Origin: Cellulomonas sp. URHE0023 | Lineage (GTDB): Bacteria > Actinomycetota > Actinomycetes > Actinomycetales > Cellulomonadaceae | Assembly (NCBI RefSeq): GCF_000688475.1 | Contig: NZ_JIAN01000011.1 | Location: 1-64,000, forward strand | DNA length: 64,000 nt | Direction of reading: 5' to 3' | Shown here: positions 547 through 9,196 of the stretch, piece by piece | Layout: each line of letters starts with the position of its first letter | Numbering within the stretch: the stretch's first letter is position 1 | The notes under the pieces: model-generated | Database searches by the model: none | Seen by the model: the letters and a program-made list of their open reading frames with translations, nothing else | What the model was told of the DNA's origin: nothing | Program-made: the position numbers and the translations under genes

Positions 547-1116
547 ATGATGAACCGGACCCGTTCGCCCCTCCCGCGACGCCTGGCTGAGCAGCTCGAG
601 ACGTCGTCGACGCTGGAGACCGTTGCCGACGCCCTGCGCCCGGTCGCGGACCTCCTCACAGCACCGCCACGCCTGCGCTCAGCGCTGAGGGGAGAGCCGT
701 TGGGCCATGCGCTGCACCCGCTGCTCACCGACCTGCCCATCGGCTTGTGGACCAGCAGCTCCGTGCTCGACGTCCTGGGCCACGACGACGCCCACGCAGC
801 GGACCGGCTGCTCGGGCTCGGCATCCTCGCAGCCGCACCGACCGCGCTGGCCGGAGCCGCCGACTGGCGACGAGGCGACGGTCGCGTCCACCGCGTCGGC
901 GCCCTCCACGCCGTGCTGAACTCGGCCGCACTGGCGCTCTACACGAGCTCATGGGTGCTGCGCCGGCGAGGTCGACGCGGGGCGGGCATCGCCTCGAGCC
1001 TCCTGGCCAGTGCGCTGACGGCGGCGAGCGGGTACCTCGGCGGGCACCTGGTCTTCGTCCTCGGCTCACCGTACGAGCAGGTCCCCGACGCGTCCGCGCG
1101 AGGGCCACGCCCATGA
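547..1116 (+). CDS. DUF2231-like integral membrane protein
   Basis: A 189-residue protein. Around residues 55-65 it has the G-H-x-x-H-P-L-L-T-D-L-P-I-G-x-W block typical of DUF2231 membrane proteins. Hydrophobic segments follow at about residues 60-80, 85-105, 120-140 and 145-170. The ATG at 547 is directly followed by a second ATG. The biochemical role of the family is unknown; in actinobacteria it often sits among redox or stress genes. It follows the small acidic gene by four bases. The family assignment rests on the HPLLTDLPIG block and the topology. Confidence 0.75.
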   Translation: MMNRTRSPLPRRLAEQLETSSTLETVADALRPVADLLTAPPRLRSALRGEPLGHALHPLLTDLPIGLWTSSSVLDVLGHDDAHAADRLLGLGILAAAPTALAGAADWRRGDGRVHRVGALHAVLNSAALALYTSSWVLRRRGRRGAGIASSLLASALTAASGYLGGHLVFVLGSPYEQVPDASARGPRP

Positions 1117-1183
1117 GCCGGCCGCATCGCGGCCCGATGGCACGTGCCTCGCGTCGCCCAGCTCGGCCGGCGCCGGAAGTGAG

Positions 1184-1939
1184 GTGAGGGTGCCCGAAGG
1201 ACGAGGCGACGGCGTGCGCGAGCTGATCCTCGTGCGCCACGGCGAGAGCGTGGGCAACATCGCCGCGACGGAGGCCGAGAGGGCCGGACGCGAGGAGCTC
1301 GAGCTCGAGACGCGGGACGCAGACACGCCGCTGTCCCCGCTCGGGGAGCGGCAGGCGACCGCGTTCGGTTCGTGGCTCCGCGACCATGACGCCGACGGGC
1401 CGGATGTCGTCTGGTGCTCGCCGTACCTGCGGGCGGTGCACACCGCGACGATCGCCCTGCGGGAGGCCGGCTCCGAGCTGGCGCTGCGCCCGGACGAGCG
1501 CCTCCGCGACCGGGAGCTGGGCATCCTCGACCGGCTCACGACGGCCGGGGTCGATGCCCGGTATCCGTCGGAAAGCGTCCGCCGTCGGCTCCTGGGCAAG
1601 TTCTACTACCGTCCACCCGGCGGCGAGTCCTGGGCGGACCTGGTGCTGCGCGTGCGGGCGTTCCTGTCCGACCTCGACCGCGCGCAGGACGGTCCACGCG
1701 TCCTCGTCGTGGCGCACGACGCGGTCATCATGTCGATCCGCTACGTCTGCGAGGCGCTCTCCGAGCGCGACGTCCTCGAGCTTGCACGCCACGACCCGGT
1801 GCGCAACGCCGCGGTGACCCGGCTGGTCCGCGACGGTCGCGGCTGGCGCGCGCTCGTGGTCAACGACGACGACCACCTGGCCCGGCGGAGCACGCCGGCC
1901 ACGGAGCATGCAGGAGACTCCGATGCCCTCCCCCACTGA
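1184..1939 (+). CDS. histidine phosphatase family protein (phosphoglycerate mutase-like)
   Basis: The N-terminal R-H-G-E-S motif supplies the phosphorylated histidine. W-C-S-P-Y-L-R-A and a late V-A-H-D segment complete the usual active-site pattern of the branch-2 histidine phosphatase fold. The length of about 250 residues is normal. GTG codons at 1184, 1190 and 1214 are all possible starts; a GAGGTGAG stretch overlaps the first two, so the start is uncertain by about ten residues. The 3' end overlaps the NAD(P)HX dehydratase gene by 17 bases, indicating coupling. The substrate cannot be told from sequence. Confidence 0.85.
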   Translation: MRVPEGRGDGVRELILVRHGESVGNIAATEAERAGREELELETRDADTPLSPLGERQATAFGSWLRDHDADGPDVVWCSPYLRAVHTATIALREAGSELALRPDERLRDRELGILDRLTTAGVDARYPSESVRRRLLGKFYYRPPGGESWADLVLRVRAFLSDLDRAQDGPRVLVVAHDAVIMSIRYVCEALSERDVLELARHDPVRNAAVTRLVRDGRGWRALVVNDDDHLARRSTPATEHAGDSDALPH

Positions 1940-2783
1940 GCACCTCACCCCTGCCGTCCTGCGCGACTGGCCCCTGCCGGCACCGGGCACCTCCAAGTAC
2001 TCCCGAGGCGAGGTCGTGGTGGTCGGCGGCGCGCGGTCCACACCCGGTGCGGCGATGCTCGCCGGCATCGCGGCGCTGCGCGCTGGTGCCGGCCGGCTGA
2101 CCCTCGCGGTCGCTCGCTCGGTGGCGGTCCAGGTGGCGGTCACGATCCCCGAGGCAGGCGTGCGCGGGCTCCCCGAGACGGAGGCCGGCTCCCCCGACGG
2201 AACGGGGACCGACGTTCTCGACGACGACCTTGGGGCGGACGCGATCCTCGTCGGCCCGGGACTCGACGACCCCGACCGGACGACCGACCTCCTGCAGGCG
2301 CTCGTGCCCCGCGTGAGCAAGAAGACCCCGATGCTCCTGGATGCCTACGCGCTCGGCGTGCTTCCCCGGGTCGCCGACGTGGCCGACTCGCTCGCCGGAC
2401 GCCTGGTCCTCACGCCGAACGCGACCGAGGCCGCGCTCCTGCTCGGCGTCGACGAGATCTCGGACGACGCCTCCTCGCGCATCGCCGCGACCTACGGAGC
2501 CGTCGTGACGTGTCGGGGCAGGATCGCCAGCCCGGACGGGCGGACGTGGACGATGACGACCGGTTCGTCCGGCCTGGCCACCTCGGGCAGCGGGGACGTC
2601 CTGGCAGGGGTGCTGGTCGGCCTGCTCGCCCGGGGCGCCGACGCCGCACAGGCGACCTGCTGGGCCACGCACCTGCACGCGGCCGCGGGCGACCGGCTGG
2701 CCGCCAGGGTCGGGCGGGTCGGCTACCTGGCTCGCGAGCTCGTCGACGAGATCCCCGCGCTGCTGACCGAGCTGTCGGCGTAG
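1923..2783 (+). CDS. nnrD: ADP-dependent (S)-NAD(P)H-hydrate dehydratase
   Basis: A 286-residue protein of the ribokinase-like NAD(P)HX dehydratase family. It repairs hydrated NAD(P)H using ADP or ATP. The early V-V-G-G-A-R-S-T-P-G-A segment, L-V-G-P-G-L-D, L-T-P-N-A-T-E and the C-terminal T-S-G-S-G-D-V-L-A-G nucleotide motif match the family. The epimerase half found in bifunctional NnrD/YjeF proteins is absent, so this is the stand-alone dehydratase. ATG 1923 is preferred over ATG 1908 because GGAGA lies 7 bases upstream. It overlaps the phosphatase gene. Confidence 0.85.
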   Translation: MPSPTEHLTPAVLRDWPLPAPGTSKYSRGEVVVVGGARSTPGAAMLAGIAALRAGAGRLTLAVARSVAVQVAVTIPEAGVRGLPETEAGSPDGTGTDVLDDDLGADAILVGPGLDDPDRTTDLLQALVPRVSKKTPMLLDAYALGVLPRVADVADSLAGRLVLTPNATEAALLLGVDEISDDASSRIAATYGAVVTCRGRIASPDGRTWTMTTGSSGLATSGSGDVLAGVLVGLLARGADAAQATCWATHLHAAAGDRLAARVGRVGYLARELVDEIPALLTELSA

Positions 2784-3380: not shown

Positions 3381-3821
3381 TCACTCGTCGAGGATCTGCG
3401 CCGCCGACACCTTCCGCTGGGCGCGCAACCACGTGACCTGTCGCCGGTTCCGCGGGGCGCACAGCTCGACCAGGTCGAGCAGCTCGTCGTCCCGGTGCGC
3501 CTTCGCCGCCTGACCCAGCACGTCCCAGTCGGTCGCCAGGCCGCACGCCGCCGCGTAGACCGAGCGCAGGTCGCTCAGCAGCGCAGCACCGGGCTCGTCA
3601 TCGCCGGCCGACGTGTCGGGCGGATCGGGCAGCAGCGCGTCGGCGTGCTCGGCAAGGGCTGCCGCGTGATCCTGCGACCAGTGCGAAAGGTCGCGTGCGA
3701 CGTGGTGCACGTCCTGCTCGGCCGCGTGGTCGTCGGCGAGACGCGTCAGTGCAGCGGCCAGACCCGCCTCCGACGCGGCCATCTCGATGAGCAGGCGAGC
3801 CACCTTCACGGCGCGCTCCAC
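3381..3821 (-). CDS. small helical hypothetical protein
   Basis: A 146-residue, Ala- and Asp-rich, predominantly helical product. It has regularly spaced H, E and D residues (AEQDVHHVARDLSHW, DHAAALAEHAD) that suggest a four-helix, ferritin-like fold, but no diagnostic motif is certain. The start at 3821 lies 16 bases inside the upstream oxidoreductase gene, so translation is coupled. Context suggests an accessory or stress role with the molybdopterin enzyme. Confidence 0.6.
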   Translation of the reverse strand: MERAVKVARLLIEMAASEAGLAAALTRLADDHAAEQDVHHVARDLSHWSQDHAAALAEHADALLPDPPDTSAGDDEPGAALLSDLRSVYAAACGLATDWDVLGQAAKAHRDDELLDLVELCAPRNRRQVTWLRAQRKVSAAQILDE

Positions 3822-6262
3822 GGTCGGATCGCCTCGTCGGCCTCGGCGTCCGGACCGCCGCTCGTGGCGGGGACGTCACCGGACAGCGGTGCGGACGCGG
3901 TCGTCGTCGGAGCAGGGGCAGCCCGCCCGTCCGCCGCAGCAAGCTTGCGCACCCGCGCGGCCCCCGACTTGAACAAGGGCTGCTTCGACACCGCATCCCA
4001 CTCGGTCGGCGTCAGCTCGTTCGCGGCGCGGCCGGCACCATCGGGCTCGCTGGGGTCTGCGGCGTCCCAGTACCCGTAGTGGAACGGCAGGAAGATGACG
4101 CCAGGACGGATCGCGGTCAGCCGGACCTGTGCCCGGACAGAGCCGCGCACGGTCGTCACCTCTGCGAGATCACCCTCCGAGAGCGACAGTGCCTGCGCGT
4201 CGTCGGCCGACATCTCGACCCACACGTCGGGCGCGGCCGCCTGCAGCTGGGGCGCACGCCCTGTCTTGGTCCGCGTGTGGAACTGGTAGAGCGTGCGGCC
4301 GGTGAGCAGGGCGAGCGGGTAGTCGTCGGACGGCTGCTCGTGCGGCGCACGGTAGTCGGCGCCCTTGAGCAGCGCCTTGCCGCTCGGGTTGAGCGCGCGG
4401 TACTCCGTGACCTCGACCGGCGCCCCGGTCAGCAGGTCGCGACCGTACGTCTCGCAGCGGTCCGGGTCCGCCCAGAACCGTCCGTCCGTGTAGAGCCGTT
4501 CGGTGCCCGCCGGATGGTCGGGCGTGCACGGCCACTGCACCCCGCCCGAGCCGCGCAGCACGTCGTACGACAGTCCGCTGTAGTCGCACGGGCGGTCTGC
4601 GCTGCACCGCTTCCACGCCTCGAACGCGTCCTGGGGAGTGCGCCAGCCGACGAGCGGGGCGCCGTCCTTGTCGACCAACGCCATCCGGTCGGCGAAGTCG
4701 ACGAAGATGTCCAGGTCCGAGCGCGCCTCCCCTGGCGGCTCAACGGCCTTCTCCGAGAGGTGCACGGTGCGGTCCGCGTTGGTGAACGTCCCCGTCTTCT
4801 CGGCCCAGGCCGCGGCGGGCAGCACCACGTCGGCCAGGCTCGCCGTCTCGGTCAGGAACATGTCCTGGACGACGAGGAACAGGCCGTCACGGGAGAGCAC
4901 CTCCCGGATCCGCGCCAGCTCCGGCAGCGAGACCGCCGGGTTGGTCGCCTGGACCCACAGCATCCCGATCGAGCCCTGCTCGGCATAGCGGAAGATCTGC
5001 ATGGCGTGCGTGGGTGGCGAGTGGTGCGGGATCGTCGACGGCTCGATGTTCCAGATCTCGGCGAGCTGTGCGACGTGCTCCGGGTTGGCCCAGTTGCGGA
5101 ACCCGGACAGGTCGCCGTCCGCCCCGCACTCGCGCGTGTTCTGCGCGGTGGGCTGGCCGTTCATCTGCAGCACGCCGCACCCGGGGCGCCCGAGCATCCC
5201 GCGCAGCAGGTGGATGTTGTTGACCTGCACCGCGGCGGCCGTCGCCTGGTTGGCCTGGTAGAAGCCCTGGAGAACCGTCGACAGCAGCCGGTCCGCCTTC
5301 CCCACCAGGCGCGCGGCGGACCGCAGGTCGTCGACCTCGATCCCGCAGATCGCCGCCGCCCGCTCGGCCGGGTACTCCTGGACGATCGCCTGCAGATCCT
5401 CGAACCCGACGGTGTGCGCCGCGACGTACGCGGGGTCGAACCAGTCGTTCGCGATCAGCTCGTGGAGCAACCCGTTCATCAGCGCGACGTTGGTGCCGGG
5501 CCGGGGTGCGAGGTGCACGGACGCCGCGCGCGCGACGGGGGTCGGTCGTGGGTCGACGCACAGGATCGCCGGAGGGTGTGGGCCTGCCAGCCGGTCGAGG
5601 ATCCTGGACCACAGGACGGTCTGCGTCTCCGCGACGTTGTGGCCGTACAGGGCGATGACGTCGGCGTGGTCGACGTCGGTGTACGAGCCCGGCTGACCGT
5701 CGCAGCCGAACGACTCCTTGAGCGCCTCGGCCGCCGTCGCCGTGCACAGTCGGGTGTTGCCGTCGAGGTGCGCCGTGCCGATGCCGCCCCGAGCGACGAC
5801 GGCGAGCGTGTAGTACTCCTCCAGGAAGAGCTGACCCGACGTGTAGAACCCGATGCTGCTGGGCCCACTCTCCGCCAGGAGCTGCCGCGTCCGGGCCACC
5901 ACCCGGTTCATCGCCTCGTCCCACGACGCCTCCACGAGCCGGCCGCCGTCTCGCACGAGGGGACGCGTGAGCCGGTCCCGCGAATGGTTCGCCTGCCAGC
6001 CGAACAGGTCCTTCGGGCCGAGCCGCCCGTGGTTCACCCGGTCGTCGGCACGCCCGCGCACCCCCACGATCGGCCCGTCCCGCACGGCGATGTCCAACCC
6101 GTCCCCGTTCGAGTGCAGGACCGACGCGCTCTGCACCCACCGGTCCACCTGCTCGCTGGAGGTGCCCTCGCCGAGGTAGGTGTCCACCCGCACCGGCCAC
6201 GGCTCGCCCGGGCCGTAGGGCGTGCGGGCGCCCCACGGCTCGGCGATCCGGTCTCGCTTCAT
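3806..6262 (-). CDS. molybdopterin-dependent oxidoreductase lacking the N-terminal 4Fe-4S ligands
   Basis: An 818-residue member of the DMSO reductase superfamily, closest in layout to assimilatory nitrate reductases and formate dehydrogenases. N-T-R-L-C near residue 173 offers the expected Cys ligand to molybdenum. The P-x-x-x-W-A-E-K-T-G-T-F-T-N block near 480 and the C-terminal G-R-T-L-Y-Q-F-H-T-R-T molydopterin-binding region are intact. There is no cysteine before residue 173, so the usual CxxCxxxC cluster is missing, and the L-C-x-K-G position reads L-G-P-K-D. Substrate and electron partner are unknown. It lies 15 bases from the SDR gene and overlaps the small helical gene. Confidence 0.85.
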   Translation of the reverse strand: MKRDRIAEPWGARTPYGPGEPWPVRVDTYLGEGTSSEQVDRWVQSASVLHSNGDGLDIAVRDGPIVGVRGRADDRVNHGRLGPKDLFGWQANHSRDRLTRPLVRDGGRLVEASWDEAMNRVVARTRQLLAESGPSSIGFYTSGQLFLEEYYTLAVVARGGIGTAHLDGNTRLCTATAAEALKESFGCDGQPGSYTDVDHADVIALYGHNVAETQTVLWSRILDRLAGPHPPAILCVDPRPTPVARAASVHLAPRPGTNVALMNGLLHELIANDWFDPAYVAAHTVGFEDLQAIVQEYPAERAAAICGIEVDDLRSAARLVGKADRLLSTVLQGFYQANQATAAAVQVNNIHLLRGMLGRPGCGVLQMNGQPTAQNTRECGADGDLSGFRNWANPEHVAQLAEIWNIEPSTIPHHSPPTHAMQIFRYAEQGSIGMLWVQATNPAVSLPELARIREVLSRDGLFLVVQDMFLTETASLADVVLPAAAWAEKTGTFTNADRTVHLSEKAVEPPGEARSDLDIFVDFADRMALVDKDGAPLVGWRTPQDAFEAWKRCSADRPCDYSGLSYDVLRGSGGVQWPCTPDHPAGTERLYTDGRFWADPDRCETYGRDLLTGAPVEVTEYRALNPSGKALLKGADYRAPHEQPSDDYPLALLTGRTLYQFHTRTKTGRAPQLQAAAPDVWVEMSADDAQALSLSEGDLAEVTTVRGSVRAQVRLTAIRPGVIFLPFHYGYWDAADPSEPDGAGRAANELTPTEWDAVSKQPLFKSGAARVRKLAAADGRAAPAPTTTASAPLSGDVPATSGGPDAEADEAIRPWSAP

Positions 6263-6277
6263 GTCGAGTCCCGCGGC

Positions 6278-7141
6278 TCAGAACACCGGTTTCCCACCGG
6301 TCACGCCCAGGACCGTCCCCGAGACGTAGGAGGCCGTGGAGCTCGCCGCCAGGAAGACGAACGCCGGCGCAACCTCCGCGGGCTGACCCGCGCGACCGAG
6401 CGGCGTGTCCGCACCGAACTTCTCCACCTTGGCCTCCGGCTGGGTGGCCGGCTGCAACGGCGTCCAGATCGGTCCCGGGGCCACGGCGTTGACGCGGATG
6501 CCCCGCGCCCCGAGCTCGCCCGCGAGGTTGACCGTGAAGTTGTTGATCGCGGCCTTCGTCGCGGCGTAGTCGAGCAGCGACTCCGTCGGCTGGTACGCCT
6601 GGATGGACGACACGTTGATGATCGAGCCACCCTCACCCAGGTGCTCGAGCGCGGCCTGGGTCACCCAGAACAGTGCGTAGAGGTTGGTCTTGAACGTCCG
6701 GTCGAGGTCGTCCGTGGTGATGTCCGCGACCGACTCGCGCCGAGCCCACTGGAACCCGGCGTTGTTGACCAGGATGTCCAGCCCGCCGAGCTCGCTGGCC
6801 GCCGACTGCACGGCGCCACGGGCCTCGTCCTCGTTTCGCAGGTCCGCCGGGATCAGGACGCACTTGCGACCGGCGCGCTCGACCCACTCGGCCGTCTGGT
6901 CGGCGTCGGGCTTCTCCTCGGGAAGGAACACGATCGCGACGTCCGCGTCCTCCCGCGCGAAGGCGATCGCGACGGCCCGTCCGATGCCCGAGTCGCCGCC
7001 AGTGATCAGGGCTTTGCGTCCGCTCAGGAGCCCGGACCCCTGGTAGCTGGACTCCCCGTGGTCGGGCGCGGGGGACATCGGTTCGGTCAGGCCGGGAGGC
7101 TGTTGCTGCTGAGGGGGGAACTGCTCGTCGGACTCGGACAT
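6278..7141 (-). CDS. short-chain dehydrogenase/reductase (YghA / general stress protein 39 type)
   Basis: A 287-residue SDR. T-G-G-D-S-G-I-G binds the nucleotide. N-N-A-G follows, then I-N-V-S-S with catalytic Ser, Y-A-A-T-K with Tyr and Lys, and N-A-V-A-P-G-P-I-W-T-P-L. The 45-residue Gln/Pro-rich N-terminal extension is usual for the YghA stress subgroup. Start 7141 follows a GAGGAG ribosome site. The gene runs in the same direction as the oxidoreductase with a 15-base gap, so it probably heads that operon. Confidence 0.88.
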   Translation of the reverse strand: MSESDEQFPPQQQQPPGLTEPMSPAPDHGESSYQGSGLLSGRKALITGGDSGIGRAVAIAFAREDADVAIVFLPEEKPDADQTAEWVERAGRKCVLIPADLRNEDEARGAVQSAASELGGLDILVNNAGFQWARRESVADITTDDLDRTFKTNLYALFWVTQAALEHLGEGGSIINVSSIQAYQPTESLLDYAATKAAINNFTVNLAGELGARGIRVNAVAPGPIWTPLQPATQPEAKVEKFGADTPLGRAGQPAEVAPAFVFLAASSTASYVSGTVLGVTGGKPVF

Positions 7142-7318
7142 GCGGGCTCCTCGTGGGGTGCGAGCTCCGTGTGTCGCCGTCTTCTCCAGCCCAACGAGCC
7201 TCCCACTGACCCGGGCCGTCGACCACCCGACCGAAGGACGGCCCCGCGTCGCCTCACCGATTGCCGGCCTGCGCCCACCGGCGCAGGCTGGGAGGGATCC
7301 GACGAAGGAGGGCGAGCA

Positions 7319-7474
7319 ATGACTGCATCGGACGACCCCCGGCACGAGGGCAAGGTGGACGACCCCGAGGAGCTCGCCCGGGCGGGTGGCGTCGGCATAG
7401 GGGCAGGCGAACCGTCCACGTTCGAGCCCGAGGAAGACACGGAGCCCGTGCAGGACCCGGCCTCGGACGATTGA
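7319..7474 (+). CDS. small acidic hypothetical protein
   Basis: A 51-residue acidic product, too short for most gene callers. The ATG at 7319 has a clear GGAGG ribosome site about 7 bases upstream. It has no signal or membrane segment and is rich in Asp, Glu, Pro and Gly, probably disordered. It is transcribed divergently from the SDR gene. Family unknown. The ribosome site and the compact open frame are the support. Confidence 0.55.
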   Translation: MTASDDPRHEGKVDDPEELARAGGVGIGAGEPSTFEPEEDTEPVQDPASDD

Positions 7475-7601: not shown

Positions 7602-8717
7602 TCAGGGCTTCCAGCTGATGCCCGTGTTGAACTTGCCGTTCCAGTCGAAGACGGCCATGTTGTCCCACTGGTTCCCGGTGCCGTTGATGTTGGCCGGGTC
7701 CCACCCGTTGCCCTTCACGGCGGTCCAGGTGGGCTCCCACCAGAAGACGCCGATACCGCCCGCGTTCCGGACGGTGTTCTGGACGTACTGGAACATCGTC
7801 GCCTGGCTGACCCAGCTCGCGTCGAAGCCGTTGCAGGTGCCGTTGGTGCTGTTCGCCTCAGAGTCCGCGTTGGCCGTCGTGAACGGGTAGGCGGTCTCGA
7901 CGATGGCGACGGGCTTGCCGTAGCGGGACTTCGCGGTGGTCACGGCCGAGTACAGCTGGTTCAGGTCACCGTGCCACATGCAGTAGTACGAGAGACCGGT
8001 GATGTCCCAGCTGACGCCCTTGGCCTTGATGCCGTCGTAGAACCACTGCAGGTTCCCGACGGAGTCGGCGTCGGCGGTGTGGATGATCACCTGGGTCGAG
8101 GAGCTGCACGCCTTGACCGCGTTGTAGCCCTGCTTGAGCAGCAGGCTCACGTTGGTGAAGTCGTTGTTCAGGACCTTGCCCTCGTTCCAGAGCATGCCGA
8201 CGTTGATCTCGTTACCGATCTGGACGCTGTCGGGCGTCGTGCCCTGCGCCTTGAGCTTGGTGCAGGTGTCGTACGTGAAGTTGTAGACGTCGGTCTGCAG
8301 CTGCGTGATGGTGTGGCTCGCCCAGGCCGCCGGCTTGTACTGCTTGCCCGGGTCGGCCCAGGTGTCGGAGTAGTGCAGGTCCACCATGAGCTTGAGGCCC
8401 TTGCCCTTGACCGTCTTGGCGTCGGTCAGGAGCTTGGCCTGGTTGTTGTAGCCAGACGCCGGGTTGTTCCAGACCCGCAGTCGGGCGTAGTTCATGCCGG
8501 CGGTCTTGAGGGTGTCGAGCGGGTTCGCCTGCGCCCCGCTGGCGTTGTAGTACTTGACTCCGAGATCGAGGCTGCGCTGCAGGCTCGACACGTCCGCGCC
8601 GAGCATGGTGAGGCTGTTCGCAGCCTGGGCTGGCGGAGCGATCGTCAGGGCCAGAGCGGGTGCCGCCAACACGACGGCGACGGTAGCGATGGCGGCCAGG
8701 CGCTTTTGTACCTTCAC
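7602..8717 (-). CDS. secreted glycoside hydrolase family 53 arabinogalactan endo-beta-1,4-galactanase
   Basis: A 371-residue secreted enzyme. A basic start (VKVQKR), hydrophobic core and A-Q-A-A-N site form a Sec signal peptide of about 34 residues. The mature part is a (beta/alpha)8 barrel with GH53 signs: G-A-D-V-S-S, N-Y-A-R-L-R-V-W-N-N-P, the acid/base Glu in Q-I-G-N-E-I-N-V-G, and the nucleophile Glu in V-E-T-A-Y-P-F. It should cleave beta-1,4-galactan of pectin side chains outside the cell. The GTG at 8717 follows AAGGAGAT. No carbohydrate-binding module is attached. Confidence 0.92.
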   Translation of the reverse strand: MKVQKRLAAIATVAVVLAAPALALTIAPPAQAANSLTMLGADVSSLQRSLDLGVKYYNASGAQANPLDTLKTAGMNYARLRVWNNPASGYNNQAKLLTDAKTVKGKGLKLMVDLHYSDTWADPGKQYKPAAWASHTITQLQTDVYNFTYDTCTKLKAQGTTPDSVQIGNEINVGMLWNEGKVLNNDFTNVSLLLKQGYNAVKACSSSTQVIIHTADADSVGNLQWFYDGIKAKGVSWDITGLSYYCMWHGDLNQLYSAVTTAKSRYGKPVAIVETAYPFTTANADSEANSTNGTCNGFDASWVSQATMFQYVQNTVRNAGGIGVFWWEPTWTAVKGNGWDPANINGTGNQWDNMAVFDWNGKFNTGISWKP

Positions 8718-8812
8718 GGCAATCTCCTTTGATTGTCCTGAGTAGGCAGGCGGAACCGAGGCCAACTCCTCGCCGGAAGAGGTTGTACCGGCGCGGCCCG
8801 TAGGCCTCGGAG

Positions 8813-8827
8813 TGGCGTTGTACGCCA
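8813..8827. promoter_or_regulatory. candidate operator upstream of the galactanase gene
   Basis: A perfect inverted repeat, TGGCGT-TGT-ACGCCA, about 100 bases upstream of the galactanase start. Sugar-responsive LacI-type repressors bind palindromes of similar size in actinobacteria, but this sequence is not one I know. No regulator gene is adjacent. The regulatory role is inferred from position only. Confidence 0.3.
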
Positions 8828-9196
8828 TCCGATCCTGTGCACGGTCACAGTAGCCGGGTTGCCATCAGGACGGAAGCAGGGTGCTACAGGGCAAGGCGTT
8901 CGCCGAGAGGGCGCGCACTGACAAGTCCTGCCTCAGCTATCCGAGCCGCATACCCGCACTTCAGCGGGGGGATGCGAGGAATACTTTGCGTTCCATGCGG
9001 GACGGAGTGGGCCAGGAGTGCTCCACGTCGCCGCCACCGTCTTGCTGAGATCGCTCCCAGCCAAAGCACATTTTGTGAGCCAGCAACCCTCGGCACCGTG
9101 GCGACTGGCCTCGCCGCGCCCCTGCCTATCCGCGGTCGCGCGCTTGCCGATCGGCCGAGTGCTGCGCTAGTTGGACGTGGCGCGCGGCTGCCCAAG
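8828..9196. other. intergenic stretch without a supported gene
   Basis: Short open frames exist on both strands, but none has a ribosome site or family-like sequence. The stretch lies between the galactanase promoter region and the broken small gene at 9.2 kb. I see nothing else in it. Confidence 0.5.

Follow-up and report, generated by a model that had tools for sequence, protein, structure and literature searches.

The DNA analysed here, referred to as the window, comprises positions 1-64,000 of contig NZ_JIAN01000011.1 from Cellulomonas sp. URHE0023 (assembly GCF_000688475.1). On its reverse strand it carries a gene for a molybdenum (Mo) oxidoreductase, P0001, that lacks the cysteines of the N-terminal iron-sulfur (Fe-S) cluster, and directly 3' of this the gene for a small protein predicted to form a four-helix bundle, here called the partner. 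The two genes overlap by the four bases GTGA, in which the GTG start of the partner lies over the TGA stop of the Mo gene. By comparison with its homologues, P0001 is a member of a uniform Fe-S-less subtype that stands beside a sister subtype retaining three of the four cluster cysteines, and its sequence and modelled fold place it in the Cys-ligated NapA/NasC branch of the Mo-bis(molybdopterin guanine dinucleotide) (Mo-bisMGD) enzymes.

Absence of the N-terminal cluster cysteines

The cysteines of P0001 are residues 173, 187, 235, 306, 362, 379, 553, 559, 579 and 603, which bears out the original prediction, made from the DNA alone, that there is none before residue 173. Pfam detected the Molybdopterin domain (PF00384; E 9e-58, 196.4 bits) and the Molydop_binding domain (PF01568; E 3.8e-27, 94.9 bits), both above cut-off, and with molybdopterin and dinucleotide-binding domains present the protein belongs to the dimethyl sulfoxide (DMSO) reductase (MopB) superfamily. 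The same scan did not detect the Molybdop_Fe4S4 domain (PF04879) in P0001. As a control, this domain was detected in five of seven other queries, namely the three-Cys proteins (defined below) of loci L146 and L025, the Halomonas fusion protein of L148 and the four-Cys outgroups L002 and L033, while the other two, a frame of L151 that is not that of the Mo gene and a Staphylococcus neighbour gene, matched no Pfam family. When P0001 is aligned to Desulfovibrio NapA (E 1.2e-105), the four cluster cysteines correspond to S47, H50, D54 and G82; as had also been predicted, a CxxCxxxC...C cluster with its usual ligands cannot form, and the folded protein presumably carries no cluster.

It had been proposed that close homologues with intact cysteines would point to a sequencing or start-site error. 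Relatives with three of the four cysteines do exist, in the sister subtype, but 122 homologues share the non-cysteine pattern of P0001. An error of either kind is ruled out by these concordant sequences together with an in-frame TGA that is the sixth codon 5' of the ATG, with no start codon between. An alignment of 56 homologues shows no variation at M1 and 13 more positions up to residue 30, and with the in-frame stop this implies that the start is right and that there is no missing N-terminus to hold cysteines. The absence of the cluster cysteines is genuine.

A uniform replacement set and a three-cysteine sister subtype

A scan of genome contigs returned at least 585 relatives of the Mo protein, of which the best 80 were kept. 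The homologue set used here consists of 138 distinct sequences with at least 50% identity in which the cluster site is covered; rows below 50% identity, partial pieces and duplicates were dropped before this count, among them a 42% identical Staphylococcus plasmid protein that is likewise of the three-Cys kind. The Fe-S-less type was defined by H50 and D54. The set divides into 122 sequences of this type, with S/T/A47 and invariant H50, D54, K84 and D85, and 16 of the three-Cys type, which read C47-C50-C54-G82-K84-G85; a complete separation of the two groups is given by positions 47, 50, 54 and 85 and by no others. Since H50 and D54 make up the definition, the uniformity of both within the type is not independent; what is independent is that C50 and C54 occur in all of the other 16 sequences, and that positions 84 and 85 are uniform. 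Identity to P0001 is 61-75% in the Fe-S-less homologues and 58-66% in the three-Cys subtype, the upper value of the latter coming from a partial match. That the same His, Asp and Asp are held at 61-75% identity is not expected of a merely decayed site.

The original prediction that the Mo-ligand cysteine and pterin-binding regions are kept is supported, as C173, T174, Q336, Q370 and R377 are present in every Fe-S-less sequence, and the pocket residues are common to the three-Cys relatives. Such uniformity across 122 sequences at this level of divergence argues against a non-catalytic pseudo-enzyme or scaffold, a reading that could appeal to the loss of the cluster and to the superfamily members FhcB and Nqo3 (NuoG), described as precedents without Mo cofactor (PMC10100899), and which we regard as very improbable. 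A relocated cluster at C553, C559, C579 and C603 (window 4454-4606) was also considered. These cysteines are near-invariant in the Fe-S-less type, and the candidate was rejected because position 553 is Ala in 7 and position 579 Val in 5 of the 122 sequences, because the same cysteines occur in most three-Cys relatives, and because NapA itself has cysteines aligned with C579 and C603.

Table 1. Coordinates of the Mo gene, its cluster-site and ligand codons, and the adjoining genes in the window.
Feature	Position	Strand	Basis or distribution
Fe-S-less Mo-bisMGD catalytic subunit P0001, 818 aa	3806..6262	-	Open reading frame (ORF); PF00384 + PF01568, no PF04879; NapA-like fold
S47 codon, first cluster Cys replaced	6122..6124	-	NapA alignment; S 75, T 27, A 20 of 122
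H50 codon, second cluster Cys replaced	6113..6115	-	His 122/138, Cys other 16
D54 codon, third cluster Cys replaced	6101..6103	-	Asp 122/138, Cys other 16
G82 codon, fourth cluster Cys replaced	6017..6019	-	Gly 75, Asp 47 of 122; Gly 16/16 three-Cys
K84 and D85 codons	6008..6013	-	K84 138/138; D85 122/122 vs G85 16/16 three-Cys
C173 codon, Mo ligand	5744..5746	-	Cys 138/138; aligned with RLC of NapA
Partner protein, 142 aa, four-helix bundle, ferritin-like fold	3381..3809	-	AlphaFold2 mean predicted local distance difference test (pLDDT) 91.1
Short-chain dehydrogenase gene, 15-bp gap upstream of Mo gene	6278..7141	-	

Relationship to known Mo-bisMGD enzymes

The best fold match of the P0001 model is Desulfovibrio NapA (2nap/2v3v; for 2v3v, Z 38.0, root-mean-square deviation (rmsd) 2.5 over 675 residues, 32% identity), with which it shares the Cys Mo ligand, the GQP...R motif and the Lys after the fourth cluster position. 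P0001 differs from NapA in having no cluster cysteines and an N-terminal extension of about 36 residues ahead of the part that matches NapA, and NapA pairs with NapB whereas P0001 is found with the four-helix partner. No signal peptide was noticed in P0001 by eye. The Cys-ligated NasC/NasA/NarB enzymes are among its top NCBIfam scores after Fdh-alpha, but both the NasC score (393.2 bits against a cut-off of 1100) and the NAPA score (308.7 against 930.55) are under their cut-offs, and the NasC group further differs in having the Fe-S motif and no such partner operon. One hallmark of the NapA/NasC branch, the Cys Mo ligand, is found throughout the 138 homologues, and another, the CxxCxxxC...C motif, is absent from P0001.

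TorA and BisC likewise lack an N-terminal cluster, and the original prediction had offered, besides an exit of electrons by another route, a likeness of P0001 to DMSO-reductase-type enzymes that work without external electron transfer. This comparison is not supported, as those enzymes have a Ser Mo ligand where P0001 has Cys173, and the torA score of P0001 is 52.7 bits against a cut-off of 1465; on fold and sequence we would place P0001 nearest NapA and NasC, and not with TorA and DorA. DorA, without an N-terminal cluster, is assigned with TorA to the group with Ser-ligated Mo (PMC10100899). The sister subtype, with three cysteines and no fourth, resembles AioA and IdrA in this respect. The cluster motif of AioA itself has three cysteines and no fourth; AioA has a Rieske partner, in contrast to the helical one found here. 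IdrA clusters with AioA and is described with a [3Fe-4S] cluster, and the Mo of AioA is described as having no protein ligand (PMC10100899), in contrast to the Cys ligand of P0001. Mycobacterium smegmatis MSMEG_2237 (760 aa) and MSMEG_6816 (720 aa), which have been tested as nitrate reductases (PMC7816997), were judged from length alone to be unlikely members of the family.

The four-helix partner

The original prediction did not include the partner gene, which matters for the route of the electrons. Partner proteins form a family of about 160 aa encoded directly 3' of the Mo gene, and were present within 3 kb in 103 of the 109 loci of a first survey; the six without one were three canonical outgroups, one three-Cys gene and two loci at contig ends. 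After deduplication, a profile search recovered the partner in 119/119 Fe-S-less loci, 13/15 three-Cys loci and all four loci without type call, and a 4-bp start/stop overlap was present in 73 of 78 measured loci. Searched against 396 genomes of the phylum, the partner profile gave a match in 28, in 25 of which the match lies beside the Mo gene by coordinates, the other three matches (G038, G270 and G363) being weak or partial. In Halomonas KO116 (L148) the partner is fused in one frame to the C-terminus of the Mo subunit, with Mo domains up to residue 758 and the partner match at 795-942. A second apparent fusion, in Streptomyces BHT-5-2 (L151), was rejected, as its partner match lies in a frame other than that of the Mo gene, the frame without Pfam match mentioned above.

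The best listed fold matches of the partner model are ferritins (Z 17.7 over 128 residues, rmsd 2.0), although helical bundles score high generally and this value indicates likeness of fold only. The partner shares the four-helix bundle of ferritin and bacterioferritin, but no sequence match accompanies it: hhalign against a profile of 13 ferritins gave a probability of about 0.1% and no homology. As for putative di-iron ligands, no ExxH pair is seen in those columns of the partner alignment that are invariant or nearly so. Foldseek with the partner model returned nothing below E 0.001 (best 3.3e-3), a sequence search of the PDB returned a single row at E 4.1, and the window partner matched no Pfam family at E up to 10. 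Across nine members of the partner family Pfam gave weak rows from E 0.076, with no ferritin or NarJ/TorD family at E up to 10.

The partner might be an electron-transfer subunit, a structural subunit or a chaperone. A maturation chaperone, as a functional counterpart of NarJ or TorD that helps to insert the bis-MGD cofactor and leaves while a general carrier feeds the Mo subunit, would be in keeping with a small, predicted all-helical protein encoded by the adjacent gene and present also with the three-Cys subtype. The C-terminal fusion in Halomonas and the lack of a NarJ/TorD Pfam match in the nine members speak against this, as do the ferritins among the fold matches, although the absence of TorD and NarJ from the 50 matches listed does not exclude likeness to them. 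We hold the chaperone to be possible but doubtful, and the fusion favours a lasting subunit. In Staphylococcus saprophyticus (L150, 5413-5958) a 181-aa protein with no Pfam match is encoded 3 bp before the three-Cys gene, and might be another kind of partner.

Gene neighbourhood and likely substrate

Either an HPP protein or a GPR1/YaaH-like membrane protein is encoded just downstream in 33 of 138 distinct loci. An HPP gene (PF04982) lies within 2.2 kb downstream in 11 distinct loci of both subtypes (5/119 Fe-S-less, 5/15 three-Cys and 1/4 without type call), the family being confirmed for these, in some cases on a shorter copy of the same locus. GPR1/YaaH-like genes occur within the same distance in 22 of the 119 Fe-S-less loci and in none of the others; the name is marginal, as the two members scanned scored 24.9 bits against a cut-off of 25. 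Downstream sequence exceeded 1.1 kb in 116/119, 14/15 and 3/4 loci, respectively, and was shorter in five loci. A formate/nitrite transporter gene is present in the Deinococcus locus L146. Two Arabidopsis HPP proteins, found through cyanobacterial homologues, are described as nitrite transporters (PMC10605003), and this transport of nitrite by plant HPP proteins favours nitrate as the substrate.

Neighbour genes were clustered by blastp on the output of a crude gene caller at 106 loci, and no cluster besides the partner was found above 15/106 loci; the higher count of 22/119 for the GPR1/YaaH-like gene comes from the profile search. Clusters of 116 aa and 157 aa, read from the opposite strand, seem to be spurious ORFs. 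One gene cluster, to which the cyanase of L104 belongs, is encoded on the other strand immediately downstream in L009, L011, L092, L104, L106 and L113, and a cysteine-rich protein of about 147 aa is encoded near the operon, at varying positions, in 11 of the 106 loci (L043, L058, L077, L102 and seven others).

Proposed mechanism

We think it somewhat more likely than not that the two genes encode a two-subunit reductase of nitrate or another oxyanion in which electrons enter at the proximal pterin by way of the old cluster site. P0001 would be a Cys-ligated Mo-bisMGD oxidoreductase from the NapA/NasC branch whose N-terminal Fe-S cluster has been lost, probably through a three-cysteine intermediate, and would work with the four-helix partner as an enzyme that is most likely cytoplasmic, with nitrate or a similar oxyanion as the most likely substrate and nitrite as the product. 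The donor would dock where the cluster used to lie, either beside the partner or by way of it, and electrons would probably pass to Mo via the proximal pterin with K84 retained. With the cysteines gone, H50, D54 and D85 would occupy the pocket and form either a hydrogen-bond network or a metal site there. In NapA the connection between cluster and proximal pterin is made by a Lys, and in Campylobacter NapA loss of this residue, Lys79, the equivalent of K84, is reported to abolish activity (PMC13223375). The invariance of K84 despite the lost cysteines suggests that this side still serves as the entry for electrons or protons.

A narrower version of this scheme, in which a conserved His-Asp-Asp-Lys relay, possibly metal-bound, receives electrons from or through the partner and the three-Cys sister is the preserved intermediate, is put forward tentatively. 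A new mononuclear metal ion, bound by H50, D54 and D85 as the relay in place of the cluster, would accord with the joint appearance of three potential ligands, each uniform across the 122 sequences. However, a hydrogen-bonded plug with K84 is equally possible, and the AlphaFold model is unreliable there, with pLDDT below 50 at residues 47-53, so that the geometry of H50, D54 and D85 was not used; we consider the metal site unlikely.

Some Mo enzymes, such as pyrogallol transhydroxylase and acetylene hydratase, need no external electrons, and a redox-neutral reaction or substrate-to-substrate oxygen transfer at Mo would agree with an enzyme in which no internal relay is left and the residues of the Mo site are intact. 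It is at odds with the retention, in all 122 sequences, of the Lys that in NapA lies between cluster and pterin, with the transporters near some loci, which point to small anions, and with the same pocket residues in the three-Cys relatives, and we consider it improbable.

Several observations weigh against the two-subunit nitrate reductase that we favour. With no ferritin homology by profile, the partner cannot be called a redox protein; its presence also with three-Cys enzymes means that it was not acquired as a substitute for the cluster; and in two three-Cys loci (L165 and L157, from genomes G197 and G694) no partner was found nearby even at permissive thresholds. As regards the substrate, it may be something other than nitrate, since two residues beside Mo, T174 and Q332, both align with M in NapA; P0001 also scores far below the NasC, NapA and Fdh cut-offs of NCBIfam, and few Fe-S-less loci adjoin HPP. 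A third nitrate reductase would not be required in the genome of the window, where NarG is already encoded (1585.7 bits, over cut-off), as is a flavoprotein fusion whose NasC-like domain scores 459.6 bits, short of the NasC cut-off.

Distribution and history

Matches at E <=1e-100 occur in 51 of 396 genomes of the phylum, canonical four-Cys relatives included, and matches to a three-Cys query at E <=1e-150 in 62 of 394 genomes of the class, both subtypes together. Fe-S-less members were found in Actinomycetota only, those from the phylum genomes being presumed to belong there from their nearest named relatives, apart from one locus labelled unverified Bacillus. Among plasmids, 399 records have a match, of which 10 were examined. 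Three-Cys genes are on records from Deinococcus, Hymenobacter, Halomonas, Vreelandella, Staphylococcus, Curtobacterium, Streptomyces BHT-5-2 and Arthrobacter StoSoilB13, those of Vreelandella and Arthrobacter in broken frames; a Rhodococcus record is Fe-S-less, and in a cyanobacterial record the first part of the match is absent and G85 is present. Several plasmid records label these genes 'nitrate reductase', a label that may be wrong. In Streptomyces sp. DH24 a broken three-Cys copy (L044, 2694-3589) lies about 4.4 kb upstream of a Fe-S-less copy.

In a tree rooted on four-Cys relatives the three-Cys sequences are the first to branch, with several forks weakly supported and long-branch warnings. 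Two quick trees needed two and three changes, respectively, to account for the Fe-S-less set, and in the second the starred branches force at least two, which speaks against one origin. When the Fe-S-less set was constrained to stand together the likelihood was higher by 13.25, and the constrained tree was not rejected by the approximately unbiased (AU) test (p 0.778), so that a single origin of the type is possible. The simplest course would be from four cysteines to three, perhaps with a [3Fe-4S] cluster, and then to none.

Lack of the N-terminal Fe-S cluster, known before in some superfamily members such as the Ser-ligated DorA (PMC10100899), is now seen within the Cys-ligated nitrate-reductase branch together with an apparent intermediate, and offers a natural experiment on the role of the cluster in a Mo-bisMGD enzyme. 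In the open-licence literature we found no description of such a loss in the NapA/NasC branch, of the subtype or of its partner. Surveys that select by the cluster-binding motif, as was done in PMC10100899, would miss the Fe-S-less subtype.

Other genes in the window

The short-chain dehydrogenase gene is perhaps co-transcribed with the Mo gene in the window. Its cluster occurs in 15 of the 106 loci at scattered positions, and not at the same place in relatives. Opposite the two genes lies an open frame of 1131 aa (window 4079-7474, forward strand), which is probably merely a high-GC antisense frame. The regions at window 547-2783 and 7602-8828 contain ordinary genes, for a DUF2231 protein, a histidine phosphatase, an NAD(P)H-hydrate dehydratase and a GH53 glycosidase.

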